In this document: positions 50,803-64,000 of the stretch, one piece after another
Position numbering within the stretch: position 1 is the first letter of the stretch
Layout of the letters: every line of letters begins with the position of its first letter
DNA from: an uncultured Vicinamibacterales bacterium
Lineage (GTDB): Bacteria > Acidobacteriota > Vicinamibacteria > Vicinamibacterales > UBA8438
DNA: 64,000 nucleotides
Assembly: GCA_958295905.1 (NCBI GenBank)
Contig: OY282382.1
Span: 5,700,910-5,764,909 of the forward strand
Direction of reading: 5' to 3'
Notes under the pieces: generated by a model
Database searches by the model: none
What the model saw: only the letters and a program-made list of their open reading frames with translations
What the model was told of the DNA's origin: nothing
Translations under genes and position numbers: made by a program

Positions 50803-51699
50803 TCAGGAAGACACTCTCGCCTCGTAGTCCAGGTCCGCCATCGCCGGCGTAGTGAAGGCCGTCGATGCACGGTCCCACCCGCGTCGGGCCGTCAGCCGCT
50901 TCAAGTCCGGCGCCGCGTAGACGAACCGCTCGTCGTACTGGCGATAGAGAGCGCCGAAGAACCGATCGAACCTCAACGCGCTGCCGGCAGCAGGGAACTC
51001 GTCGATGATCGCGCCAGTGTCCTCCATTCGTGTGGAAGCCAACGCGAGAGCAATCGCTTCGTAACGGCTGACGTCGTTTCGAATGCCGCGTCTGTCCGCC
51101 AGCTCGCGGAGCGCCGTGTGGAATCGACGAACGGACTCGACCGGGCGGCCGTCGCTGCCGACCGCGACATCGTTCTCCGCAAGCTCTCGAACCGACCCCT
51201 CCTGTTCAGCTCCCCTCCCGCCGGGGCTGCGACCCAGCTCTTCCGCACGGTTCGCGCGCATGACGAACAGGTAGCCGCAGACGAGCGGCGGGTAGGCGAT
51301 GTGCAGATTGGTGCAGTCGCCGACCGCTTCCTCCATCCGATTGGTGAGATTCCTGAACGCCCCGATCGCGCCCTTGCAGGACACGGCGAGCACCGGACCG
51401 ATCCCGTCCTTCGTCACGACGACGTCGACGTTCTTCGTCTTCAGACCGCCGTAGACGGTCCGCTCGCCGGCACCGCCGAGATCGGGATCGTGAACCAGAG
51501 TCAACCGGGCGCCCTTGCGCTCCACGCGGAACGGCGGTCGGGGCACGATCTCGTCAGGGTCGAACCCGCCCTCGACGACGAGACGGCAGGCGACGTACCA
51601 ATGCAGGGGCTTGATGTGCCGCTGGCTCTGCGTCGAACCGTGGAACGTCACGAAATGGGCCAGCGCCGCCCGGAGCGATACCCACTCGCAGGCGCTCAC
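50803..51699 (-). CDS. Restriction endonuclease subunit, PD-(D/E)xK type
   Basis: 298 residues from the GTG that overlaps the methyltransferase stop (GTGA); another GTG lies 15 bp upstream. The likely nuclease core is KTKNVDVVVTKDGIGPVLAV followed by SCKG, an Asp-(x)n-(S)xK variant of the PD-(D/E)xK site. WVSLRAALAHFVTFHGSTQS and a C-terminal DERFVYAAPDLKRLTARRGW surround it. Overlap with the methyltransferase marks it as the restriction partner of a type II system; the recognition site is not predictable. Confidence 0.6.
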   Translation of the reverse strand: MSACEWVSLRAALAHFVTFHGSTQSQRHIKPLHWYVACRLVVEGGFDPDEIVPRPPFRVERKGARLTLVHDPDLGGAGERTVYGGLKTKNVDVVVTKDGIGPVLAVSCKGAIGAFRNLTNRMEEAVGDCTNLHIAYPPLVCGYLFVMRANRAEELGRSPGGRGAEQEGSVRELAENDVAVGSDGRPVESVRRFHTALRELADRRGIRNDVSRYEAIALALASTRMEDTGAIIDEFPAAGSALRFDRFFGALYRQYDERFVYAAPDLKRLTARRGWDRASTAFTTPAMADLDYEARVSS

Positions 51700-53168
51700 G
51701 CCAGATGTCGCCACTGCTGCATCACCTCGATACCTTCTTCCAATAGAGCGCGGTCGCGATCGGTGACGGCGGCATCCGGCACGAGAAGCACGTGCCGGGC
51801 CTCGCCGGGCTCGAGCTTCAGCATGCCGCCGCCGAGCGGATGCCCTTCGAGCTCGCAACTGAGCCGGCCGGCCGGCGAGTTCCACGCCGCGGAGAGCCCC
51901 TGTTCGGAGATGCCTCCATCCTCGAACAGGCCTGACCTGAGGTCGACGGCCAGAAGCGTGTTCGTGCACGCGCACCGACCCCGATTCACGGCCAGCGCAG
52001 GGGACTTTCCGCTCATGTACGTCAGGACGAACGCAGGACGCCGAACGTCGGGAACCGTGTACCACGGGGTCCGGTTGCGGCACTTGTAGGAGGCTTTCGC
52101 CCGCTGGCCTTCGGCGGTGTCCAGATACGCCCGGACCGCGCCCGGCACCTGGGCGCGCGGGGGTATGCGCAGGAGCAATACCGGTTCATCCTTCGCCACC
52201 CAGCGCTCCACGTCGGCGTCGTCGATCACCGCACCGGTGAGGTACCGGCTGTTCCGAATGGACGGCACGAGGAACTCGTCCGGTATCGCGAAGCGCCGCA
52301 CGTCGGACGGACGCAGATGAAAGAAGCCATTCGCGCCGCTGACGTACCCGATGCCGACCTGCGCGATCTGTCCGAGGCGGACCGCGTCCGGTTCGGTCGC
52401 CATACGCTCGTAGAGGCGCCGAACGCGCGGCGGCAGCAGGAACGGCCGCAGCCGGCGGCGCCATCGGACACGCCAAGCCTCCACGGAGATGTCCTCCGAC
52501 ACCGGCGGCGGCATCGCACGGGGGTCGAATCGTTCGACTCTCGACAACCGGATGGCGCCGGCGCGGGAGCCCGCGCGGTCGGCCAACAGCAGCCAGCAGT
52601 CTTCCGACAGCCGCGGGAAGATCTTGTCCTGGATGGCGACCAGGCGCACACAACCGAAGTTGGCGACCAGATAGTCCATGAGCGGGCCGGCGTACGGCGC
52701 GTGACCGATCTCGGCCGGCACGACGAAGGCCATCCGCCCGCCCGGACGCAGCTTGCTGGCCGCGGCAACGATGAACGGCGCCCATGACGACGACAGTCCG
52801 CTGAAAACGACGCCCAGGCGGCGGCAGTAGTCGAGCGCGGCCCGCCGGGTCGCGCCGGCGAACCGCTGGTACCGAATGAACGGCGGGTTGCCGGCGGCGC
52901 AATCGAACCGGCGCCGGTCCGTTGCCGCCCAGGTGAAGAAGTCGTCCTCGATGATCGTGGCTCCCGGCGCCCGCTGCGCAGACTCGGCGACCGAGGCCGG
53001 GTCCCTTTCGACCCCCACGCTGTTCGGGTGACGCGCAACGAAACGGCCGTCGCCGCTCGACGGATCGAGGAGGCTGTCGGCCGGATCTCGAACTACCCAC
53101 CGCACCAGGGCGTGAGCCACCGCTTCCGGCGTGAAGTAGGCTCCGAGCGTCTTGTTGTCGCGCGGCAT
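51696..53168 (-). CDS. N6-adenine DNA methyltransferase (type II R-M)
   Basis: 490 residues. LGAYFTPEAVAHALVRWVV is the opening of the Eco57I/TaqI-type class; motif I is LLDPSSGDGRF and the catalytic motif IV is NPPFIRY. A C-terminal target-recognition region follows (residues about 250-490; GIGYVSGANGFFHLRPSDVR is typical). It transfers a methyl group from S-adenosylmethionine to adenine in its recognition site. It is coupled to the restriction gene by a 4-bp overlap. ATG was chosen just before the FTP motif. Confidence 0.88.
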   Translation of the reverse strand: MPRDNKTLGAYFTPEAVAHALVRWVVRDPADSLLDPSSGDGRFVARHPNSVGVERDPASVAESAQRAPGATIIEDDFFTWAATDRRRFDCAAGNPPFIRYQRFAGATRRAALDYCRRLGVVFSGLSSSWAPFIVAAASKLRPGGRMAFVVPAEIGHAPYAGPLMDYLVANFGCVRLVAIQDKIFPRLSEDCWLLLADRAGSRAGAIRLSRVERFDPRAMPPPVSEDISVEAWRVRWRRRLRPFLLPPRVRRLYERMATEPDAVRLGQIAQVGIGYVSGANGFFHLRPSDVRRFAIPDEFLVPSIRNSRYLTGAVIDDADVERWVAKDEPVLLLRIPPRAQVPGAVRAYLDTAEGQRAKASYKCRNRTPWYTVPDVRRPAFVLTYMSGKSPALAVNRGRCACTNTLLAVDLRSGLFEDGGISEQGLSAAWNSPAGRLSCELEGHPLGGGMLKLEPGEARHVLLVPDAAVTDRDRALLEEGIEVMQQWRHLA

Positions 53169-53357
53169 CGGTTTCGACGTGCCGGAGCGCAAAACGCGGT
53201 CCGGCTGGACCGCGGCAGTCGGGACGGGGCGCATCAAGCACCAGTGTACCCCGCTTACTCCCGCAGGCGGCGCCCGCACAAGTGCAGACACCCTATGGAT
53301 TCGATACAACCCCGGGACGGGGCGCCGTCGTGCGCCCCGCGCGCGACGCTCCTGCCG

Positions 53358-54818
53358 CTACGCCAGAATCCCCCGGATGGGGTGCCCGTCCACGTCGGCG
53401 AGGCGGAAGTCCCGGCCGCCGAAACGGTAGGTCAGGTTGCGGTAATCGAGGCCGAGCAGGGTGAGCACGGTGGCGTGGAGGTCGCGCACGGTGTGGGCGT
53501 TCTCGACGACGCGGTAGCCGTACTCGTCGGTCCGGCCGTAGATGAAGCCCTTCTTCAGGCCGCCGCCGGCCATCCACAGGCTGAAGCCGTAGGGGTTGTG
53601 GTCGCGGCCGTTGGCGCCCTGCACGAACGGGGTGCGGCCGAACTCGCCCGAAAAGATGACAAGCGTCTCGTCGAGGAGGCCGCGGGCCTTGAGGTCCTTG
53701 ACGAGCCCGGCCACCGGCTGGTCGACGGTCAGGGCGTTGGCGGTGTGGCCCTCCTCGAGCTTGGTGTGCTGGTCCCACGGGTTGGCGGCCTGCCCCATGC
53801 CGTCGGTGCCGACCATGGTGAGCTCGACGAAGCGCACGCCGCGCTCGACGAGCCGCCGCGCCACCAGGCACTGGCGCCCGTAGGCGGCGGTGGACGCGTT
53901 GGGCGAGTCCATGCCGTAGAGCCGCCTGGTGGCCTCGGTCTCGCCCGCGAGGTCGACGAGCTCGGGCACCGCGGTCTGCATGCGGTAGGCGATCTCGTAG
54001 TTGTCGATGGCCGCCTCGACCTGCCGGTCTCCGCCGATGCGGTCGAGGAAGGCGGCGTCGAGGTCGGCGATGAGCCCCAGGCGGTCGCGCTGCCGCCGGT
54101 CCGTCTCGCGGGGCCGCACGTTGTTGAGGGGCTCGGCGTTCTCGGGATAGAGCATCGAGCCCTGGTGGACCGCGGGCAGGAAGCCGTTGCCGAAGACGTT
54201 GACGCCGCCCAAGGGGATGCCGCCGCTGCCGAGGACCACGAACCCCGGCAGGTTCTGGTTCTCGGTGCCGAGGCCGTAGGTCACCCAAGCCCCCATGCTG
54301 GGGAACCCGTTGAAGGGCATGCCGCAGTGGAAGTAGAAGTTCGCCTGGGCGTGCTCCATGAACGGCGCGGTCATCGAGCGGATGACGGTCAATTCGTCGG
54401 CCACGCCCCCGATGTGGGGGAACAACGCGCTCACGGGAATGCCGCTCTCGCCGTAGCGGGTGAACGCCCAGGGGCTCGGCCAGATGTTGCCGTCCTGGTT
54501 GAACATCGTCCGCTCGGTCTGGAACGGCATCGGCCGCCCCGCCTCGGCCGCGAGCCTCGGCTTGGGGTCGAACGAGTCGACGTGCGACAGCCCCCCGGAC
54601 ATGTAGCAGAAGATGACGTTCTTCACCTTCGGCGGGAAGTGCGGCGGCTTCGCGGCGAGGGGGCCGTCGACGGCCTCCTGGGCCAGGCCCGCGTAGGACG
54701 CATCGGCCATCAGGGCCGACAGCGCGAGCAGGCCGAACCCCGTCGAGGTCTGGCGCAGCATCTCCCGGCGGGTGGGGAACGGACGGGGGGCGGGGTGGCG
54801 ACGCGGGTCAAGGCACAT
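53358..54818 (-). CDS. DUF1501 family secreted protein
   Basis: 486 residues. TRREMLRQTSTGFGLLALSA is a twin-arginine-like signal. Alkaline-phosphatase/sulfatase-like fold markers follow: NVIFCYMSGGLSHVDSFDPK, MEHAQANFYFHCGMPFNG, GTDGMGQAANPWDQHT, and SGEFGRTPFVQGANGRDHNP. DUF1501 proteins usually lie next to DUF1553/DUF1549 cytochrome-like proteins, as here; the pair is common in Planctomycetota and Acidobacteriota and is linked by inference to polysaccharide breakdown. It lies directly downstream of the DUF1553 gene. Confidence 0.87.
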   Translation of the reverse strand: MCLDPRRHPAPRPFPTRREMLRQTSTGFGLLALSALMADASYAGLAQEAVDGPLAAKPPHFPPKVKNVIFCYMSGGLSHVDSFDPKPRLAAEAGRPMPFQTERTMFNQDGNIWPSPWAFTRYGESGIPVSALFPHIGGVADELTVIRSMTAPFMEHAQANFYFHCGMPFNGFPSMGAWVTYGLGTENQNLPGFVVLGSGGIPLGGVNVFGNGFLPAVHQGSMLYPENAEPLNNVRPRETDRRQRDRLGLIADLDAAFLDRIGGDRQVEAAIDNYEIAYRMQTAVPELVDLAGETEATRRLYGMDSPNASTAAYGRQCLVARRLVERGVRFVELTMVGTDGMGQAANPWDQHTKLEEGHTANALTVDQPVAGLVKDLKARGLLDETLVIFSGEFGRTPFVQGANGRDHNPYGFSLWMAGGGLKKGFIYGRTDEYGYRVVENAHTVRDLHATVLTLLGLDYRNLTYRFGGRDFRLADVDGHPIRGILA

Positions 54819-54834
54819 GGGAGAACCTCGGCCA

Positions 54835-54865
54835 GGTCTGCGCCGTAGAACGGCGCGGACGCCTA
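54835..54865. repeat. Palindromic repeat family C, stop-codon copy
   Basis: GGTCTGCGCCGTAGAACGGC followed by GCGGACGCCTAG: a GCGCCGT/ACGGCGC-type palindrome whose last bases are the stop codon of the minus-strand DUF1553 gene. Confidence 0.65.
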
Positions 54866-57800
54866 GCGAATGAACAGGTATTCCTTCAGGTTGAACAGGC
54901 TGTGCGCGACGTCCTGCCACACCTGCGGGTCGTAGAGCAGCAGGTGCGGCGCGCTGCCGCGCGCCGCCGCCGCCGTGTCGAGGTAGGCGGCGATGCGCGC
55001 GCGCTCCGCGTCGGCGGGCCGGCGGGTCAGCGCCTTGAGGAACATGTGGTCGATGCGGCTCTCAATCGACCCCGCCTCGCCCTCGGCGAGACGCCGCCCC
55101 CATTCCGCCGCCTGCCCGATGACGAACGGGCTGTTGAGCATGGTCAGCGACTGCGCGGGCACGTTGGTGACGTCGCGCTGGCCGCGCGTGGTCGCCGGCC
55201 GCGGCAGGTCGAAGACGTCCAGGAACGGGTTGTGCGCGTTGCGGCGAATCTCCTGGTAGATGCTGCGGCGCCCGTCGCCGTCGAGGGGACCGTTGTTCGG
55301 GTCGCCCTCCGTCAGCCCGTACCGCGCCGCGTAGCGCACCGGCACCGAGGGACCGTACAGCGTCGGGTCGAGCCGGCCGGACACCGAGAGAATCGAGTCT
55401 CGGACGGCCTCGGCGTCGAGCCGCCGGAGGTTGGCGTGCTGCAGCAGCCGGTTGGACGGGTCGGCCGCGAGGGCCTCCGGCGACCCCCGGCTGCCCATGC
55501 GGTACGCGGCGGTCGACACGAGGCGCCGGACCAGCCGCTTGACGGAGTAGCCGCCGCCCGCGAACTCCGCCGCGAGGTGGTCGAGCAGCGCGGGGTGGGA
55601 CGGCGCGTCGCCCAGGCGTCCGAAGTTGTCGACGGTGCGGACGAGGCCGTACCCGAACAGGTGGCGCCAGACGCGGTTCACCGCGACGCGCGCGGTGAGG
55701 GGGTTGTCGGGCGCGGTGATCGCGCCGGCGAGGCGCAACCGGACCAAGCCGGGGTCGGGATACGGCTGCGCGTCGAGCGCGGCGAGGAACGCGCGCGGCA
55801 CCGCGTCGCCGAGGTTCTTGTGGTTGCCGCGCACCAGCAGCGGCTGGTCCGGCGCCGCCTCTTCGACCACCCCGGGGGCGCGGCGCGCCACCGGCACGTC
55901 GCGCTCGAGCAGCCGGTAGCGGGCGGCCGGCGCGCGCAGCGCCACGAGCTGTTCCAGCGACCGCGGCAGCAGATCGGCGCGCACGAACTCGTCGAGGAAC
56001 GCCGCCTCGGTCTCGGTCAGCGCGCCGAGCCTCCACCGGGACACGACCTCGCCGAGGCGCCGGCCGACGAGCGCGGCCAGGGCCTCGCGCGAGTCGGGCG
56101 GCGTCGCGCCAGCCCCCGCCAGCAGATGCAGCACCGGCAGATCGGTGTCGAGCGGCGTCGCCGCCTCGTCGTGGAACAGCACCTGCCCGACCCCCATCGA
56201 CGAGCGGCCGTCGCCGCGCCGCACCGGCCGGTTCGTCTGCCGGCCGTCCTCGGGGTCGAGCGTGAACTGCGTCACGTCGTTCTGGGTCGCGAACTCGATG
56301 TAGGCGGTGAAACCCTTCCAGAAGGCGGTGTCCCACTGCGCCCAGGTCATCCGGTCGCGCTTCGGGCTGTAGCGCAGGTGGTAGATGCCGCCGCGCGGCA
56401 CCGCGTAGTTCTCGATGATGAGGTTGGCGAAGCTGAGGTCGCCGCCGAGCACCCGCAGGCTGATGAAGTCGTTGTCGATGGTGAACCGCGGCGTCTGGAT
56501 GACCCCCGCGTGCTTCGACGACAGCAGGTGCGTGTAGGCGCCGCCGGGATAGATGCCGGTCAGCAGGCGGTCGCCCCGCCGCTCGACCGCGAACTCGCCG
56601 GGCGGCGACGGCGCCTCGGGGCGGCCCACGCCGTGCCCGACGGTCGCGGCGTAGTCGGCCCCCGCGAGATCCCACGCGACCTGGAAGTGCTCGCGGTTGA
56701 ACCGCCCGCGGTCCGCCAGCTCCGTATCCCACCGGGCGCGCAGCGCTTCCCAGGCGCGCGGCAGGTCCGCATCCGCCACCGCGGCGAGCGCGCGCCACGC
56801 GGCCAGCGCGCCGCCGTCGCGCTCGTCCCGCGGCGGCGCCGCGGCGCGTTCCGATGCCGCGGGCACCGGGTCCGCCTCTTCTTCCAGCAGCCGCGCCCCC
56901 ACCGTCTCCGCCGCCTCGAGCCACGCATCGGCGAGTCCGTCGCGGATCTCCTGCTTCAGCGCCGCGAGGGCGTCCCGGTTGGTCTCGAGGAGAGCGGGGT
57001 CGTCGATGGCGCGCTGGGTCGGGCGCGCGCCGTAGAGGGTGCCGAACAGCGAGTAGTAGTCCTTCTGGCTGATCGCGTCGAACTTGTGGTCGTGGCACCG
57101 GGCGCACGAGACGGTCAGGCCCATGAACGCCTTCGACACCACGTCCACCTGGTTGTCGGTCCACTTGACCCGGTCCTCCCACGGATCGACAGGCTGGTAG
57201 CCGTGCTCGACGAGCCGGTAGTGGGCGGTGCCGATGATCGACTCGTTGGTGCGGCTCTCGGCGTCGAGCCGGGGCGCCGGCAGCAGATCCCCGGCCACGT
57301 GCTCCCGAATCAACTGGTCGTAAGGCACATCGCCGTTGAACGCGCGGATCAGGTAGTCGCGGTAGCGCCACGCGAGGGGGATGTCGGGGTCGCCTTCGCT
57401 GCCGTGCGATTCGCTGTAGCGGAACAGGTCCATCCAGTGGCGCGCCCACCGCTCGCCGAAGTGCGGCGAGGCGAGGTACCGGTCGACGAGATCGGCATAG
57501 GCGTCGGGCGACGGGTCGCCGGCGAACCGGGCGACCTCGGCCAGCGTCGGCGGCAGCCCGCGCAGATCGAACGACAGCCGGCGGATCAGCGTCCGCCGGT
57601 CGACCGGCGGCGCCGGATCGAGCCCCTCGGCCTCCAGCCGGGCGAGGATGAACCGGTCGACCGCGCCCCGCGGCCACGCCTCGTCACCGACCGCGGGCGG
57701 ATCGGCCGGCTCGACCGGTTGCCACGCCCAGTGCGAGCGGCGCCGCTTGTCCAGATCGAACGGCTCGGACGGGTCCGGCGCACCCGCCGCCGCTGCCGCG

Positions 57801-58189
57801 TCCTCGGGCCACGGCACCCCCATCTCGACCCAGGCGATCAGGCTCTCCACCGCCGACGGGTCCAGGGCGCCGGTCGGCGGCATCAGCACGGGCCGCCCCT
57901 GCACCCGCTGCACGAGCGGGCTCGCGTGCGGGTCGCCCGGCACCACCGCGGGCCCGCTGTCGCCGCCCGCGAGCAGCCCGCCGCGGCTGTCGAGCCGCAG
58001 CCCCCCGAAGGGCGTCTCGAGCCCCGCGCCGTGGCACTGGAAACACTGCTCCGCGAGCAGCGGACGGATCTCGGTCTCGAAGAACTCGATCTGCTCCGGG
58101 CTCGGCCCCGCCGGCTGGGCGCCGGCCCGGACGCCGGCAACGAGGGCGACGGCCAAGCCCAGGAGCGCCGCACAAGATCTGAAACTCAT
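54863..58189 (-). CDS. Secreted cytochrome-like protein with DUF1549 and DUF1553 domains
   Basis: 1108 residues with signal peptide (ending VRAGAQ). The planctomycete-type cytochrome domain (residues about 30-125) has the heme motif CFQCH. DUF1549 follows at about 185-390 (FSFDLRGLPPT-like: LSFDLRGLPPTLAEVARFAG; second CxxCH in SCARCHDHK). DUF1553 occupies about 835-1090 (NPLTARVAVNRVWRHLFGYG; LDVFDLPRPATTRGQRDVTN). Probably a periplasmic redox protein acting with the DUF1501 partner; substrate unknown. Confidence 0.9.
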   Translation of the reverse strand: MSFRSCAALLGLAVALVAGVRAGAQPAGPSPEQIEFFETEIRPLLAEQCFQCHGAGLETPFGGLRLDSRGGLLAGGDSGPAVVPGDPHASPLVQRVQGRPVLMPPTGALDPSAVESLIAWVEMGVPWPEDAAAAAGAPDPSEPFDLDKRRRSHWAWQPVEPADPPAVGDEAWPRGAVDRFILARLEAEGLDPAPPVDRRTLIRRLSFDLRGLPPTLAEVARFAGDPSPDAYADLVDRYLASPHFGERWARHWMDLFRYSESHGSEGDPDIPLAWRYRDYLIRAFNGDVPYDQLIREHVAGDLLPAPRLDAESRTNESIIGTAHYRLVEHGYQPVDPWEDRVKWTDNQVDVVSKAFMGLTVSCARCHDHKFDAISQKDYYSLFGTLYGARPTQRAIDDPALLETNRDALAALKQEIRDGLADAWLEAAETVGARLLEEEADPVPAASERAAAPPRDERDGGALAAWRALAAVADADLPRAWEALRARWDTELADRGRFNREHFQVAWDLAGADYAATVGHGVGRPEAPSPPGEFAVERRGDRLLTGIYPGGAYTHLLSSKHAGVIQTPRFTIDNDFISLRVLGGDLSFANLIIENYAVPRGGIYHLRYSPKRDRMTWAQWDTAFWKGFTAYIEFATQNDVTQFTLDPEDGRQTNRPVRRGDGRSSMGVGQVLFHDEAATPLDTDLPVLHLLAGAGATPPDSREALAALVGRRLGEVVSRWRLGALTETEAAFLDEFVRADLLPRSLEQLVALRAPAARYRLLERDVPVARRAPGVVEEAAPDQPLLVRGNHKNLGDAVPRAFLAALDAQPYPDPGLVRLRLAGAITAPDNPLTARVAVNRVWRHLFGYGLVRTVDNFGRLGDAPSHPALLDHLAAEFAGGGYSVKRLVRRLVSTAAYRMGSRGSPEALAADPSNRLLQHANLRRLDAEAVRDSILSVSGRLDPTLYGPSVPVRYAARYGLTEGDPNNGPLDGDGRRSIYQEIRRNAHNPFLDVFDLPRPATTRGQRDVTNVPAQSLTMLNSPFVIGQAAEWGRRLAEGEAGSIESRIDHMFLKALTRRPADAERARIAAYLDTAAAARGSAPHLLLYDPQVWQDVAHSLFNLKEYLFIR

Positions 58190-58248
58190 CGTGCCCCGCA
58201 CTTTAGCGCCGGTCCGACCTCGACGCAAGCGGCGCCCGGATCCCCCGC

Positions 58249-58419
58249 AGGACCATCCCACGCTCCGCCGCCGCCGTGCGCAGGCGGCATCGTGGCGGGT
58301 CCTGGGGCTCCGGACGGGCGGAATCGTGGGTCTCACGCGGCGCCGGCCGGTCGGCAAGACGGTGGCGACCCCTCGAATCGGGGGCGGGCCGTCACCCGCA
58401 GTCAGCGTGGGATGCCCCT
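58249..58419 (-). repeat. Dispersed repeat family B, copy 3 (inverted)
   Basis: 171 bp. AGGACCATCCCACGCT at one end and AGCGTGGGATGCCCCT at the other; the interior matches copies 1 and 2. It marks the left edge of the kinase/ATPase gene block, 259 bp before its start. Confidence 0.85.
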
Positions 58420-58677
58420 GGGATCCCCCGTTTCCGCTACTTCGTCCCCCGATACCCGCCCCGCACTATCCTCAACCGTGCCGACAGTCGGCTCTCAGAC
58501 ACACGGAGGACATTGTATGCTTTGCCGCGATGCCGCCGGGCCGCCCACCGGCCGTTGCCGTCCCTGGATGACGGCCACGCGCGCCGGCGGGCGATCGGAA
58601 GTCCACCTGCCGGGCAGGCGACGCTTCATGCGATTCCGGCCGCGATCCGCCGTGAATGGAACTAACGGAACGGCGAC

Positions 58678-61600
58678 ATGAACGTGACCCCATTCCACTG
58701 CGGGCCTTTCGCCAACGAGAGCGAACGCACGGCATTCGAGCATCTCAGAAGCCGCATCGAGTCGTCGCTCGGGGCCGGCGACGACCAATGGATACTGCTG
58801 ACCAATCTCACGTGGTCGGTCACGCACCAGTTCCAGGCGGACGAGATCGACCTGATCGCCATCGGTCCGACCGGCGTGCGCGTCATCGAAGTCAAGCACT
58901 GGTCGCGGCGCTGGGTCGATGAGCACCCGGACCTCGTGGACCAGGAAGCGGACCGGGTCACGAACAAGGCGCGCAAGATCGGCACCACTTCCCGCAAGTC
59001 CGTACCGGACCTCGGGCGCGTGGACGGCGTGATTCTGCTGACGCGCGAATCGCCGGGCATCAAGGAGCTGGCCGGCCGGGTCGTCCGGGGGGTGCGGTTC
59101 TGCACGCTGAAAGAGTGGCGCGAGGCCGTCGATTTCGACGGGGCGCCGGCGCTGCGCCCGCAACAGGTGGCGCGGCTCGGCCGTCTCCTGGCGCCGAAAA
59201 GCGCGGTCGCTTTGGACGGTTCCCTGCGGCGGTTCGCCGGCTACGTCAACCTGGAGCGCCGCACGCCCCCGGCCGAGCGGTTCCACCGCGTATACCAGGG
59301 TGTCCACGCCACCCGGCACGACAAGGTGATTCTGCATCTCTACGACCTGTCGGCGAGCGACGAGGCGCACGCCGAGACGCGGGCGATGCGGGGGTTCGAG
59401 ACGTTGCGCCGGCTGCAACTGCACGCCTGGGCGCCGCGCGTACTCGATTCCTGGCAGGCGGCGCCCGGCTACGCGGGCGAGATGCACTTCTTCACCGTCA
59501 CCGACCCGCTGGCGCCTTCCGTCGAGAAACGCGCGTCGGACCCGTCGTGGGACACCCCGGCGCGGCTCGCCTTCTCCAGGGCTGCCCTGGGCGCGTTGGG
59601 CGAGCTGCATGGGGAGACGTCGGACGGCGCGCCCATCCTGCACCGCAACCTGACGCCGGGGACGGTGCTCGTCCGGCACGACAACACGCCGATCTTCACC
59701 GGCTTCGAGTTGTCGAAAATCCCGTCCGAACGGAGCGTGGCGTCGGTGGGGCCGCCGTCGGGGAAATGGCCGCCGTCGACGGCGCCGGAAGTGCGCGCGC
59801 AAGGACTGCACGCGGCGGACACCCGGTCGGACCGCTACGCGCTCTGCGCCAGCCTGCGCGTCCTGTTCGAGGACCGGGACGACGAAACCAGCCGCCAAGC
59901 CCTTGAAGGGCTGGCTTCGGGCACGGCGGACGATCCGGCGCAGCGCGGCGAGCCGTCCGCGCTCGACGCGCGCTTCTCGGCGCTGCTCGGTGAGTCCCCG
60001 CCCGCGCCGCCGCCTCCGCCGGCGCGGTTCTGGACGGAAGATCAGATCGTGCCGTTCCGCGGCGGCCACTACCGGGTGGTCGAACGCCTCGGCTCCGGCG
60101 GGGTGGGCACGACGTTCAAGGTCGTGCAGCTCGACCGCACGAGGCAGAAGGAGTTCGGGACCTTCGTCGCCAAGGTGTGTCATGACGAGGAGGCGGGACG
60201 CCGCGCCGTGGGCGCCTACCGGCTGGCGCGATCGCACCTGCAGCACCAAGCCGTCTCCGGGATCCTCGAGGTGGCGTCGGCGTGGCGCGAGAACGAGTTC
60301 ACGGCGCTCATGACCTGGGTCGAGGGCTCGCCGCTGCGCGATTTCGCGGGGGTCCTGCCGCTGCTCGTGGACGACCTCGACGAGACCTCCGCCGACGCGC
60401 TGACCCGCTTCTGGCTGCGGACGATGTGCGAGGCCCTCGACGTGCTGCACCGCAACGGTCTCATCCATGGCGACGTGAGCCCCGGCAACCTGATCGTGTC
60501 CGGGCGCAACCTCGTGCTCACCGATTACGACTTCGTCGGCCGGATCGATGAACCGATCGCCGCGCCGGGCGCCGCGCTCTACTGCGCGCCGTCCCACCAC
60601 GCGGGCCGGCCGGCGTCGCCTTCCGACGACCTGTACGCGCTGGCGGCCAGCTTCTTTCACGTGATCTTCGAGCGCGAGCCGTTCCGCCACGGCGGCGCGC
60701 CGGCGAAGGAGCGCGGCCTGAACTGGGAAGCGGTCGACCCCGAACAGCGCGCGGAGTATCCCACGGTGCTGGAGTTCCTCCGCCGGGCCACCGACCCTGA
60801 CCCGGATCAGCGGTTCCCGTCGGCGGCCGAAGCGCTGAAGGCGCTGGCGGTAGCGCCGCCCGTCCCGCCGCCGCCCGTCGTCGCACCTATGCCAGTGGTC
60901 TCGCCGCCGCCGGAAGTGCCGCCCGCGTCGCCGGCGGAAGGTCCGGCGCTCGTCCCCGCGCCGTCGGCCGGGAAACCCGCGCCGGTTCCCGAGCCGTCGG
61001 CGGCGCCGACGCCCGTCCCCGCGCCGGCCGCGGGTGGACCCGCACCGGTCGAGCCGCCCGATGCGCCGGCCGTACGCCGCGAGCAGCGGGTGGAGTGGCT
61101 GCGGGGGTTGTTGCAGTCGTATCCGGGGTCGCGGTGGGGGAACCAGGAGACGCGCGGGCTCGACAGCCCCTTCGCCGAGCAGACGTACGTCGAGACGCCC
61201 CTCGAGGCGGCGTTGCGCGACGACGTGCGGGCGCGCCGCGTCCGGCTCGTCGTCCTCTGCGGCAACGCCGGCGACGGGAAGACGGCGCTGCTCCAGCATC
61301 TCGCCGGACAGTTCGGCCTCGAACGGCCCGCGTCGTCCGAGCGGGTGCTGGAGGGGGAGACGGACGACGGCCTGCGCGTGCGGATGAACCTCGACGGTTC
61401 GGCGTCGTGGCGGGGGCGGTCGGCCGACGACCTGATCGACGAGTTCCTGGCGCCGTTTCGGGAGGGGCCGCCGGCGGAGGACGTCGCGCATCTGCTGGCG
61501 ATCAACGACGGGCGTCTGCTGGAGTGGATCGAGAGGGTCGAAGGGCGCGGGCGGGAGACCGCCCTCACGCGGGCGCTGTACGAGGCCCTTCAGCGGGCTC

Positions 61601-63051
61601 AGCAGGATCGGTGGACCGGCGCCTCCGCCGCCGCGGGGGACGAAAACAACGAGGACGGCGAGGACGCGGGCGGGGCCGGCGGTGACGCCGCGGAGGACGC
61701 CGAAGGCGCCGGCGACGTTGCCGAGGACGCCGCCCCGCGACCGGCCCCCGATGCGCACATCCGGTTCGTCAACCTCAATCAGCGGTCGCTCGTCGGCGGC
61801 GTGACGGCCGACGGGACCGGCATCCAGACCGGTTTCCTGGAACGCCTGGTGGACCACCTGTACGGCGGCGGCCGGGCACCGGAGATCTGGGCGCCGTGCG
61901 CGACCTGCGCGGCGCAGGACCGCTGCGACGTGTTCCGGGCCAACCGGTTGTTCGGGCCGGCCGGCCTCCCCGGCGGCGCGGACGCCGAAGCGCGGTCGCG
62001 CGCCCGCGGGCGGCTCTTCGAGGCGCTCCAGGCCGTCCACCTGCGCGGCGAGACGCACGTCACGGTGCGCGAACTGCGCGCCGCGCTCGTCTACATCCTG
62101 TTCGGGGTCCACTTCTGCGACGACTATCACGAGGGCGCCGCCGCGGCGCGCCGCCGCCCGGTCCCGGCCTACTGGGATCCGGCCTTCGGTCCGTTTCCCG
62201 CAACCGATGCGGCGTCGGGGACCGCGCCGCCCCTCCTGCCTTACTGGGACCGGGCATTCGACCCGCAGTCGCCGCGGCGGCAGGGGGGCGTGCTCGGCGA
62301 CTTGGCGCGCTTCGACCCGGCCCTCGACGCGCATCCGCGGATCGATCGACACTTGGTGCGCCCGGCGGGGGCCGGCGCCCGCCGGGGCGGGGCGGGGTAT
62401 CCGGCGTTGAACCTTGCCTCGGCGCGGCGGCGCGCGTATTTCGAATGGTCCGAACAGGACATCGAGTCGATCACCGGGGACCGGCACGCGCTCGAACTCG
62501 CCCACGGCCGTCACCTCCGCCGGTTCCGCCGGTTGCCGGTAGACGACGGAGCGCGCGAAGCGGCGTGCCGGGCGCTCTGCGCGGGCATCGCCCGCCTGGC
62601 GACGCTGCCGCCGCAGGCGTACGACCGTCCCGGCGTCGTTCCCCTGCGCATCACCCCCCGCACCCCGACGGAGACGGCGTTTTGGATCGAGAAGCCCGCG
62701 GATCGCTTCCATCTCGAAGCCGACCTGCCGTCCGCACCCGCCGGTCTCGACCGGCTGCACCGGCAGGCGACGCTCGTCTACCGCTATGGGGACGGGCGCG
62801 AGGAGCGTCTCCGGTTAGGCGCGGAACTGTTCCACCTGCTGCTGGAACTGAGCGAGGGGTACCAGTTGGGCGACGCCTCGACCGACGACACGTTCGCGCA
62901 CCTGTCCATCTTCGTGCAGCGGCTGGAGCGCGAGGACGACCGCCGGCTGCTGGCCTGGAACCCGATGCGCGACGATGCGATCCACGAGATCGCGGCGGAG
63001 AACGGTTCCAATGACGGACCGCAGCGGCTGGTCATTCGACCGCTGGCCTGA
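58678..63051 (+). CDS. NERD - pseudokinase - kinase - P-loop ATPase fusion, candidate defence protein
   Basis: 1457 residues. NERD nuclease-like domain: Asp58 (DEIDLIAIGP) and Glu71-x-Lys73 (VIEVKHW). Residues about 190-430 look like a decayed kinase (LHRNLTPGTVLV; FTGFE for DFG). Residues about 465-720 are a second kinase with Gly-rich loop LGSGGVGTTF (471-480), Lys499, HGDVSPGN (His597-Asn604) and DYD (616-618). A Pro/Ala linker leads to an ATPase with Walker A GNAGDGKT (862-869), an acidic insert and a Cys cluster (CATCAAQDRC). The layout recalls PglW of type 2 BREX and the MADS kinase; assignment is from memory. The ATG follows AACGGAACGGCGAC. Confidence 0.75.
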   Translation: MNVTPFHCGPFANESERTAFEHLRSRIESSLGAGDDQWILLTNLTWSVTHQFQADEIDLIAIGPTGVRVIEVKHWSRRWVDEHPDLVDQEADRVTNKARKIGTTSRKSVPDLGRVDGVILLTRESPGIKELAGRVVRGVRFCTLKEWREAVDFDGAPALRPQQVARLGRLLAPKSAVALDGSLRRFAGYVNLERRTPPAERFHRVYQGVHATRHDKVILHLYDLSASDEAHAETRAMRGFETLRRLQLHAWAPRVLDSWQAAPGYAGEMHFFTVTDPLAPSVEKRASDPSWDTPARLAFSRAALGALGELHGETSDGAPILHRNLTPGTVLVRHDNTPIFTGFELSKIPSERSVASVGPPSGKWPPSTAPEVRAQGLHAADTRSDRYALCASLRVLFEDRDDETSRQALEGLASGTADDPAQRGEPSALDARFSALLGESPPAPPPPPARFWTEDQIVPFRGGHYRVVERLGSGGVGTTFKVVQLDRTRQKEFGTFVAKVCHDEEAGRRAVGAYRLARSHLQHQAVSGILEVASAWRENEFTALMTWVEGSPLRDFAGVLPLLVDDLDETSADALTRFWLRTMCEALDVLHRNGLIHGDVSPGNLIVSGRNLVLTDYDFVGRIDEPIAAPGAALYCAPSHHAGRPASPSDDLYALAASFFHVIFEREPFRHGGAPAKERGLNWEAVDPEQRAEYPTVLEFLRRATDPDPDQRFPSAAEALKALAVAPPVPPPPVVAPMPVVSPPPEVPPASPAEGPALVPAPSAGKPAPVPEPSAAPTPVPAPAAGGPAPVEPPDAPAVRREQRVEWLRGLLQSYPGSRWGNQETRGLDSPFAEQTYVETPLEAALRDDVRARRVRLVVLCGNAGDGKTALLQHLAGQFGLERPASSERVLEGETDDGLRVRMNLDGSASWRGRSADDLIDEFLAPFREGPPAEDVAHLLAINDGRLLEWIERVEGRGRETALTRALYEALQRAQQDRWTGASAAAGDENNEDGEDAGGAGGDAAEDAEGAGDVAEDAAPRPAPDAHIRFVNLNQRSLVGGVTADGTGIQTGFLERLVDHLYGGGRAPEIWAPCATCAAQDRCDVFRANRLFGPAGLPGGADAEARSRARGRLFEALQAVHLRGETHVTVRELRAALVYILFGVHFCDDYHEGAAAARRRPVPAYWDPAFGPFPATDAASGTAPPLLPYWDRAFDPQSPRRQGGVLGDLARFDPALDAHPRIDRHLVRPAGAGARRGGAGYPALNLASARRRAYFEWSEQDIESITGDRHALELAHGRHLRRFRRLPVDDGAREAACRALCAGIARLATLPPQAYDRPGVVPLRITPRTPTETAFWIEKPADRFHLEADLPSAPAGLDRLHRQATLVYRYGDGREERLRLGAELFHLLLELSEGYQLGDASTDDTFAHLSIFVQRLEREDDRRLLAWNPMRDDAIHEIAAENGSNDGPQRLVIRPLA

Positions 63052-63062
63052 GGTGAACACGC

Positions 63063-64000
63063 ATGGCGCAAGCCGATCGAGAGATCGTCGAGAACGCACT
63101 CTCACCCGACATGGTGGAGGAGGTCTGGACCGGCAACTATGACAAGGTGCTGCCGGTCGCGCTTCAGCAGTTCGAGATTTCGGCGATCCTCCCGGCCATC
63201 TTCTACATGTTCCGCTACGGGCACCGGCGCGGCCCCGGGGAGTTCCTCGCGACATACGGTCCCCGGACGGGGACCCCGGCCCGGAAGCGCCGGCAGACCA
63301 CCGTGGACCGGATCGCGGCGAAGCTCGCCGAGACCGACGAGTTGACCGGGTTCGACGGCGAGGTCGAGAAGGCGGTTCTTGGCGACCTTCTGCTCTGCTT
63401 CTGCCTCGAGAACGTCCGGCACGGACTCGGCCGGGACAAGCAGGTGCAGCGCGTCGCGCCGACCCACTACATGACGAGCTGGATCGATCTGCCGCGGAAC
63501 GTGTCGGACCTCCGCTACGTTCCCGAGATGATCGTCGCCATGCTCGCGAATCGGCGCACGGGCGATTACGTCACCAAGAGCGAGACCACTGACCGGGCGG
63601 TCCATTTTTCGGTCGCGAACGGGTACGAAGACAACGTGCTGTTGCGCGCTTTCAGCCAGGGGCTCACCCACCGCGGCGACGTGCGGGCCGATTTGGCGTC
63701 CGACCGGTTCGATGACCGCCACGAAGCGGTCGGTCTGGACCAGCTTCTGACGATTCGGCTGGCCCTCCAGCTCGGGGCGGCGCCGACCAAACTCAGGGCG
63801 CCAAGGCAGGGCCCGGACGCGCATCGGATTTCCAACCAGCGTCCCATTGCGGAAGTCGCCGGGCGCCGCTTCTCCGATGACATCCGCCGCTTCGTGCGCT
63901 CGTACGCCGATTCCGCGCCGCGCCAGGTCTTCGTCGATATGCTGGAGTCGTGCATCACGATCGGGTTGACCACCATCGTCACCAGCACCGTCGATGTGCT
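63063..64000 (+). CDS. Protein downstream of the kinase/ATPase, possibly MAD7-like (cut by window end)
   Basis: 312 codons are visible from an ATG 11 bp after the previous stop, so the two genes are co-transcribed. KVLPVALQQFEISAILPAIF, LGDLLLCFCLENVRHGLGRD, VAPTHYMTSWIDLPRNVSDL and VPEMIVAMLANRRTGDYVTK give an all-alpha/beta protein without a motif I can assign with certainty. It resembles the protein that follows the kinase in MADS (methylation-associated defence system) loci, as I remember it. No signal peptide or membrane segment is seen. Confidence 0.6.
   Translation, partial: MAQADREIVENALSPDMVEEVWTGNYDKVLPVALQQFEISAILPAIFYMFRYGHRRGPGEFLATYGPRTGTPARKRRQTTVDRIAAKLAETDELTGFDGEVEKAVLGDLLLCFCLENVRHGLGRDKQVQRVAPTHYMTSWIDLPRNVSDLRYVPEMIVAMLANRRTGDYVTKSETTDRAVHFSVANGYEDNVLLRAFSQGLTHRGDVRADLASDRFDDRHEAVGLDQLLTIRLALQLGAAPTKLRAPRQGPDAHRISNQRPIAEVAGRRFSDDIRRFVRSYADSAPRQVFVDMLESCITIGLTTIVTSTVDV

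Follow-up and report, generated by a model that had tools for sequence, protein, structure and literature searches.

The stretch of DNA that we analysed, hereafter the window, spans 64,000 nucleotides (G000:C1:5700910-5764909) and ends inside an operon of three co-directional genes, A, B and C, with gaps of 11 bp between A and B and 1 bp between B and C. The original prediction had described a 1457-residue protein with a NERD domain, a decayed kinase, a live kinase and a Walker A motif, followed 11 bp later by another gene, a description borne out by the gene call, by Pfam and by residue conservation. The window end cuts gene B, so the end of this gene and the whole of gene C were missed at that stage. 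When the contig is followed past position 64000, the operon continues to the end of B and then through C (complete genes at L115:4573-6390 and L115:6392-11758, respectively), which we assign to DndG and DndH on the evidence given below. The diagnostic part of the operon lies in the putative DndH, outside the window. In all three genes GC varies with codon position as it does in real genes, with a third-position GC of 0.90 in gene A. The features are listed in Table 1.

Table 1. Predicted features of the operon, in window coordinates continued past the window end
Feature	Position	Strand	Evidence or remark
Gene A: NERD-pseudokinase-kinase-DndF, 1457 aa	58678..63051	+	ORF call
NERD PD-(D/E)xK nuclease-like domain, gene A N-terminus	58678..59278	+	D58, E71, K73; Pfam NERD 15-83, 35 bits
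Decayed kinase domain (pseudokinase), gene A	59227..59995	+	Family HMM; His220, HRN
Intact kinase domain, gene A	60025..60868	+	Pfam Pkinase 465-720, 61 bits; HGDVSPGN ... DYD form
Putative DndF core, gene A: P-loop, Cys cluster, C-terminal region	61084..63048	+	PADLOC SspF 42 bits; DptF profile match
Walker A GNAGDGKT; Cys cluster; Asn943 in Walker B place	61261-61284; 61897-61929; 	+	Within DndF core
Gene B: putative DndG/MAD7 homologue, 605 aa	63063-64880	+	ORF; in window only 63063..64000
Gene C: putative DndH/MAD8 homologue, 1788 aa	64882-70248		Last gene of operon, wholly past window end

The key positions of gene A are highly conserved. Each of the three NERD residues is kept in 59 of the 60 siblings. 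In the first kinase the beta-3 lysine is replaced by His220 (a histidine in 58/60 siblings) and HRD has become HRN in most, while K499, H597, D599, N604 and D616 of the second kinase are conserved in 56-60 of the 60; nuclease or kinase residues have been lost in a small number of siblings. The Walker A motif (G862-T869) and Asn943 are invariant in all 60 siblings and in 11/11 MADS proteins. Pfam gives weak P-loop NTPase matches to this part of the protein (residues ~842-974), and a search of the PDB with the F profile returned only weak, unrelated P-loop matches. Profile-profile comparison with hhalign matches the C-terminus of gene A to DptF at 98.4 % (E 8e-15), where mismatched control pairs reach 7 % or less, and we assign this C-terminal part to DndF on the strength of the profile match. 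The fused P-loop ATPase, which had been put forward as a notable oddity, loses that status: it is the predicted DndF core itself, and MAD6 carries the same one. Kinases encoded at 4.65 Mb in the same genome (29-30 % identity) were set aside because the similarity is confined to the kinase domain.

Gene B was assigned by its predicted fold. Profile-profile comparison gave no sequence-level match between gene B and DptG, and a weak one (31 %) between DptG and MAD7, the MADS version of B. The AlphaFold2 model of gene B has a pLDDT of 94; the alignment used for structure prediction left out five rows from the plasmid collection. VIA-align, a realignment of Foldseek's list, places the model on the solved DndG structure 7exx with a Z of 18.5 over 407/440 residues (rmsd 6.4, 11 % identity), the next match having a Z of 2.7; the DndG match was seen only in this realignment, Foldseek alone giving no significant match in the PDB or the viral library. 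Because the predicted fold matches 7exx, we class gene B as a DndG homologue by modelled structure, and since MAD7 matches gene B by profile at 99.8 %, MAD7 would be a DndG too. Two loci have tandem DndG-like genes between the DndF fusion and DndH: four at L049:11692-19421 (Thioalkalivibrio) and three at L089:11658-17162 (a Bacillota MAG), where the nuclease residues of DndH are altered. These copies, 49-86 % identical inside one locus, could be alternative target readers or form a hetero-oligomer.

The match between gene C and DptH exceeds the ATPase alone: hhalign aligns 1031 columns at positions 482-1652 (99.7 %, E 6e-26), and a global alignment covers the whole length. The residues of a PD-(D/E)xK site, D1125, E1143 and K1145, are kept in 58, 57 and 57 of the 62 homologues, and the E-V-K of gene C lines up with the E-V-K of DptH. 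When the model of residues 850-1285 (pLDDT 86) was realigned with VIA-align, most rows and all the top ones were PD-(D/E)xK nucleases (HamA, McrC, NucS, DdmD), the best being HamA of Hachiman (Z 7.0) and McrC (Z 6.6). As these Z-scores are moderate and Foldseek alone gave no match with E below 0.001 for this segment in the PDB or the viral library, the nuclease claim rests on the pattern of residues and on the profile match to DptH. Further on, residues 1447-1778 match the crystal structure of DptH, 7es4 (the C-terminal HerA/FtsK ATPase), and PADLOC labels this end of the protein DndH, mad8 and HerA. From these matches we classify gene C as a DndH with a predicted intact PD-(D/E)xK site and HerA/FtsK motor. 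A dead methyltransferase part is described for DndH (PMC10853773); the gene C family agrees with this, without the [SDN]PP[FYW] motif, which is absent from the middle region of 62/62 homologues. In a Xanthobacteraceae locus (L070:14592-17081), the DndH-like gene is broken by ~2.5 kb, probably an insertion sequence.

Relatives of the operon were taken from plasmids, Acidobacteriota genomes and GTDB contigs (for the latter, 80 loci of 359 confirmed relatives), and annotated DptFGH operons made up the reference set. With the HMM profiles built here, the DndF core was found in at least 88 loci from many phyla, most of which encode NERD-kinase-kinase-F, then G, then H, so the architecture of gene A is not a product of chance. 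The F-G-H order is the same in Rhizobium plasmids, the Rhizobium phaseoli version lying at L025:12805-23521; cultured carriers include Xanthobacter autotrophicus and Bosea lupini. Neither NCBIfam nor PADLOC makes a full-threshold or system-level call for the operon: the MAD6 model gives 153 bits on gene A (cut-off 460), the MAD7 model 118 bits on gene B (cut-off 410) over its full length, the curated MAD8 model has no match, and PglW gives 32 bits on gene A (cut-off 990). In many phyla, annotation probably misses part of the kinase-fused DndFGH branch. Among viral contigs, a search with exact peptide patterns from gene A retrieved nothing, and an alignment query gave six distant matches, of which four fall on the MADS side. 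The PADLOC families found near sibling loci, counted as families and not as distinct proteins, are similar in kind and number to those of random stretches of the carrier genomes. Genes for PP2C-type phosphatases adjoin the operon at L028:21118-21783 (where one is named so) and, by similarity, at L066:6888-7625 and L112:18904-19596, which suggests reversible control by kinase and phosphatase.

The distribution of the operon is patchy, with gene B present in 4/28 genomes of the family. At two loci (L030 and L058) the DNA is 86-88 % identical to the operon of the window, the identity starting at 58667-58669 and stopping at 70248-70249, and the flanks are unrelated to those of the window and to each other. 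In L029, a locus from the same genus, the cassette occupies the site that it has in the window, whereas another genome of this genus (G752) has both flanks and no cassette, with about 0.4 kb in place of the 13.4 kb of the window genome. Such a scattered occurrence is in keeping with a defence unit, three genes long and no more, that moves horizontally. The empty site of G752 (L145:2201-2614) encodes a small protein that resembles, as read by eye, a ribbon-helix-helix antitoxin. On the minus strand of the window, positions 50803-53309 encode an Eco57I-like adenine methyltransferase and an adjacent protein weakly similar to XhoI-type restriction enzymes, probably a type II restriction-modification pair; it lies 5 kb upstream of the operon, with PSCyt/DUF1501 genes in between. 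The latter (53358-58357, minus strand) encode a DUF1501 protein beside a PSCyt1/DUF1549/DUF1553 protein, have many copies in the family, and are unrelated to the operon.

In our view the locus is very probably an anti-invader operon of the stand-alone DndFGH type, with NERD, pseudokinase and active protein kinase domains fused to the N-terminus of its DndF. Homology, anatomy and mobility make phage or plasmid DNA its likely target. In a published prediction DndFGH acts on its own: DndF senses nucleotides, DndG binds DNA, and DndH is a nuclease that translocates (PMC10853773). The operon agrees with this prediction on each point. The products of A, B and C would form one complex, in which DNA would be bound by DndG and by the N-terminal portions of DndH, and the P-loop domain of DndF would bind nucleotide and either sense infection or license the complex. 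DNA would be pulled by the HerA motor of DndH past the PD-(D/E)xK domain, which would nick or cut it. The NERD domain may be a second nuclease, and we suppose that the kinase phosphorylates a member of the complex or a host target, setting or releasing activity. Self-DNA might be spared by such gating, or by a DNA feature specific to the invader, instead of by a cognate linked methylation; this is the least certain step.

Kinship with MADS (through MAD6 and MAD7) and a defence-type operon had been proposed at the outset, and both are supported. By profile, the operon matches MAD6, MAD7 and MAD8 at 99.8-100 %, over most of their length. For comparison we used a Piscinibacter plasmid locus, over the curated cut-offs for MAD2, 3, 4, 6, 7 and 8, and a Hymenobacter locus, over those for MAD5 and MAD6. 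There MAD6 has the NERD-kinase-kinase-F layout in 1390 residues and MAD8 is an H protein of 1858 residues; the public models span just a part of each. The MADS methyltransferase (MAD2) and specificity gene (MAD5) were not found beside the operon, as the original prediction had said, and it had left room for either a related or a partial, reduced system. The first of these stands, the second does not. A reduced MADS would consist of MAD6-7-8 dependent on MAD1-5 methylation genes located elsewhere in the genome, for which one can cite the three proteins and the gene order that the operon shares with MADS, the full-length match of the MAD7 model, and a split MAD2-like gene with a MAD5-like remnant at 3.19 Mb in the same genome. 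Yet the tree of the F domain, made by a quick method and with an arbitrary root, separates 73 loci, including that of the window, from 15 on the MADS side by a long, fully supported branch, and a single change accounts for the methyltransferase/HsdS label. A co-oriented MAD2-type gene is absent in 54 of the 55 siblings with at least 3.5 kb of upstream sequence, whereas MAD2- and MAD5-type genes flank 13/13 labelled MADS loci; MAD2 exceeds its cut-off in just 5 of 50 carrier genomes. We thus regard a reduced MADS as very unlikely: given the split in the tree and the missing MAD2-type gene, the operon is a sister of MADS rather than a given MADS locus cut short, and belongs to a large, separate branch of stand-alone DndFGH operons. 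At the remnant itself (L143:6347-8451, G000:C1 about 3189350-3191450) the MAD2-like methyltransferase gene is split, and a MAD5-like fragment comes after it; another MAD2-like piece lies 54 kb off. The whole has the appearance of a broken-up MADS or type I system.

Another alternative is a restriction module that depends on phosphorothioate. No dndBCDE or sspBCD genes were recognised beside the operon. The same genome has a DndC over the cut-off (329-331 bits, C1:5996130-5997107) with a DndD-like ATPase nearby, and these DndC-like and divergent DndD-like genes (L142:7028-12452, G000:C1 about 5993000-5998450), 231 kb from the operon, are possibly a phosphorothioate cluster that could supply modification. 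In cultured bacteria, moreover, Dnd has DndFGH as its partner for restriction (PMC8092258). Phosphorothioate-dependent restriction served by this cluster is nevertheless quite improbable, since DndC exceeds its cut-off in just 10 of the 50 carriers and was not found in those of L029 and L058 (MAGs, in which an absence is weak evidence one by one), and since DndFGH and Dnd modification modules are usually decoupled (PMC10853773). No single known modification system is the general partner of these operons; unlinked methyltransferases may be a source of modification. The related SspFGH, which restricts phage and requires all three genes, damages host DNA and harms hosts without modification (PMC8092258), and action free of modification would thus need a putative gate. 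The fused domains bear on another alternative, abortive infection, with the kinase or the NERD nuclease as main effector and FGH as sensor. The strong conservation of both sites speaks for it, as do the PP2C-type genes beside three loci, which suggest control of phosphorylation, and the proposal that fused NERD and kinase domains are backup suicide effectors (PMC10853773). We nonetheless hold it to be unlikely, because relatives devoid of kinases and NERD (L021-L023, L071, L100, and, from the MADS side, L106 and L111) still have F, G and H, which makes the fused domains dispensable for the core. A likeness to PglW of type 2 BREX had also been noted, and holds for the NERD-pseudokinase-kinase module (PMC12839542), but the score of the PglW model falls far below its cut-off, the C-terminus of gene A is that of a predicted DndF, and no PglX or PglZ was recognised among the genes examined on either side. 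We give practically no chance to the reading of the operon as a fragment of type 2 BREX.

The stand-alone DndFGH reading links the effector genes of MADS with the restriction complex of Dnd/Ssp, which are treated apart in the literature that we found: no publication in our search equates MAD6-7-8 with DndFGH, the MADS paper (Maestri et al. 2024) lying outside that search. A bolder proposition, possible although we would not yet favour it, is that MADS and Dnd/Ssp restriction are one family in which MAD6-7-8 are DndFGH, and that the widespread sister branch is a restriction engine working without any modification partner, self-tolerance being set by the fused kinase and not by a DNA mark. If so, tandem DndG paralogues would be alternative or combined target readers. 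Being compact and naturally free of a methyltransferase, the operon lends itself to the question of how a complex that cuts DNA can leave its own cell unharmed in the absence of a cognate DNA mark.

The systems compared here differ from the operon to various degrees. PglW has the same NERD-pseudokinase-kinase front as gene A, but differs in its C-terminal half, its partners and its profile score. The F, G and H of DptFGH/SspFGH are homologous, identically ordered and of similar core size, whereas the DptF proteins compared lack NERD and kinases, DptG is unlike gene B in sequence, and DptFGH is coupled to sulfur modification. MADS is closer in layout, with the same order of proteins and, in MAD6, the NERD-kinase-kinase-P-loop order of gene A; the operon differs from it by the lack of MAD2 and MAD5, by scores below the MAD6 and MAD7 cut-offs, by its separate branch, and by its active kinase, which reads HGDVSPxN/DYD in most siblings and H[CR]DIKPRN/DFN in MADS. 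NERD and tandem inactive and active kinases are listed among the N-terminal additions to DndF (Rakesh, Aravind and Krishnan 2024, PMC10853773). This published NERD-iK-K-DndF type of DndFGH shares with the operon the F-G-H order, the front of DndF, the Asn in the Walker B place, the DndG fold, the DndH nuclease and HerA/FtsK motor, and the absence of linked modification genes. We see no essential difference between the two, and the operon is a new example of this architecture, not a new kind.
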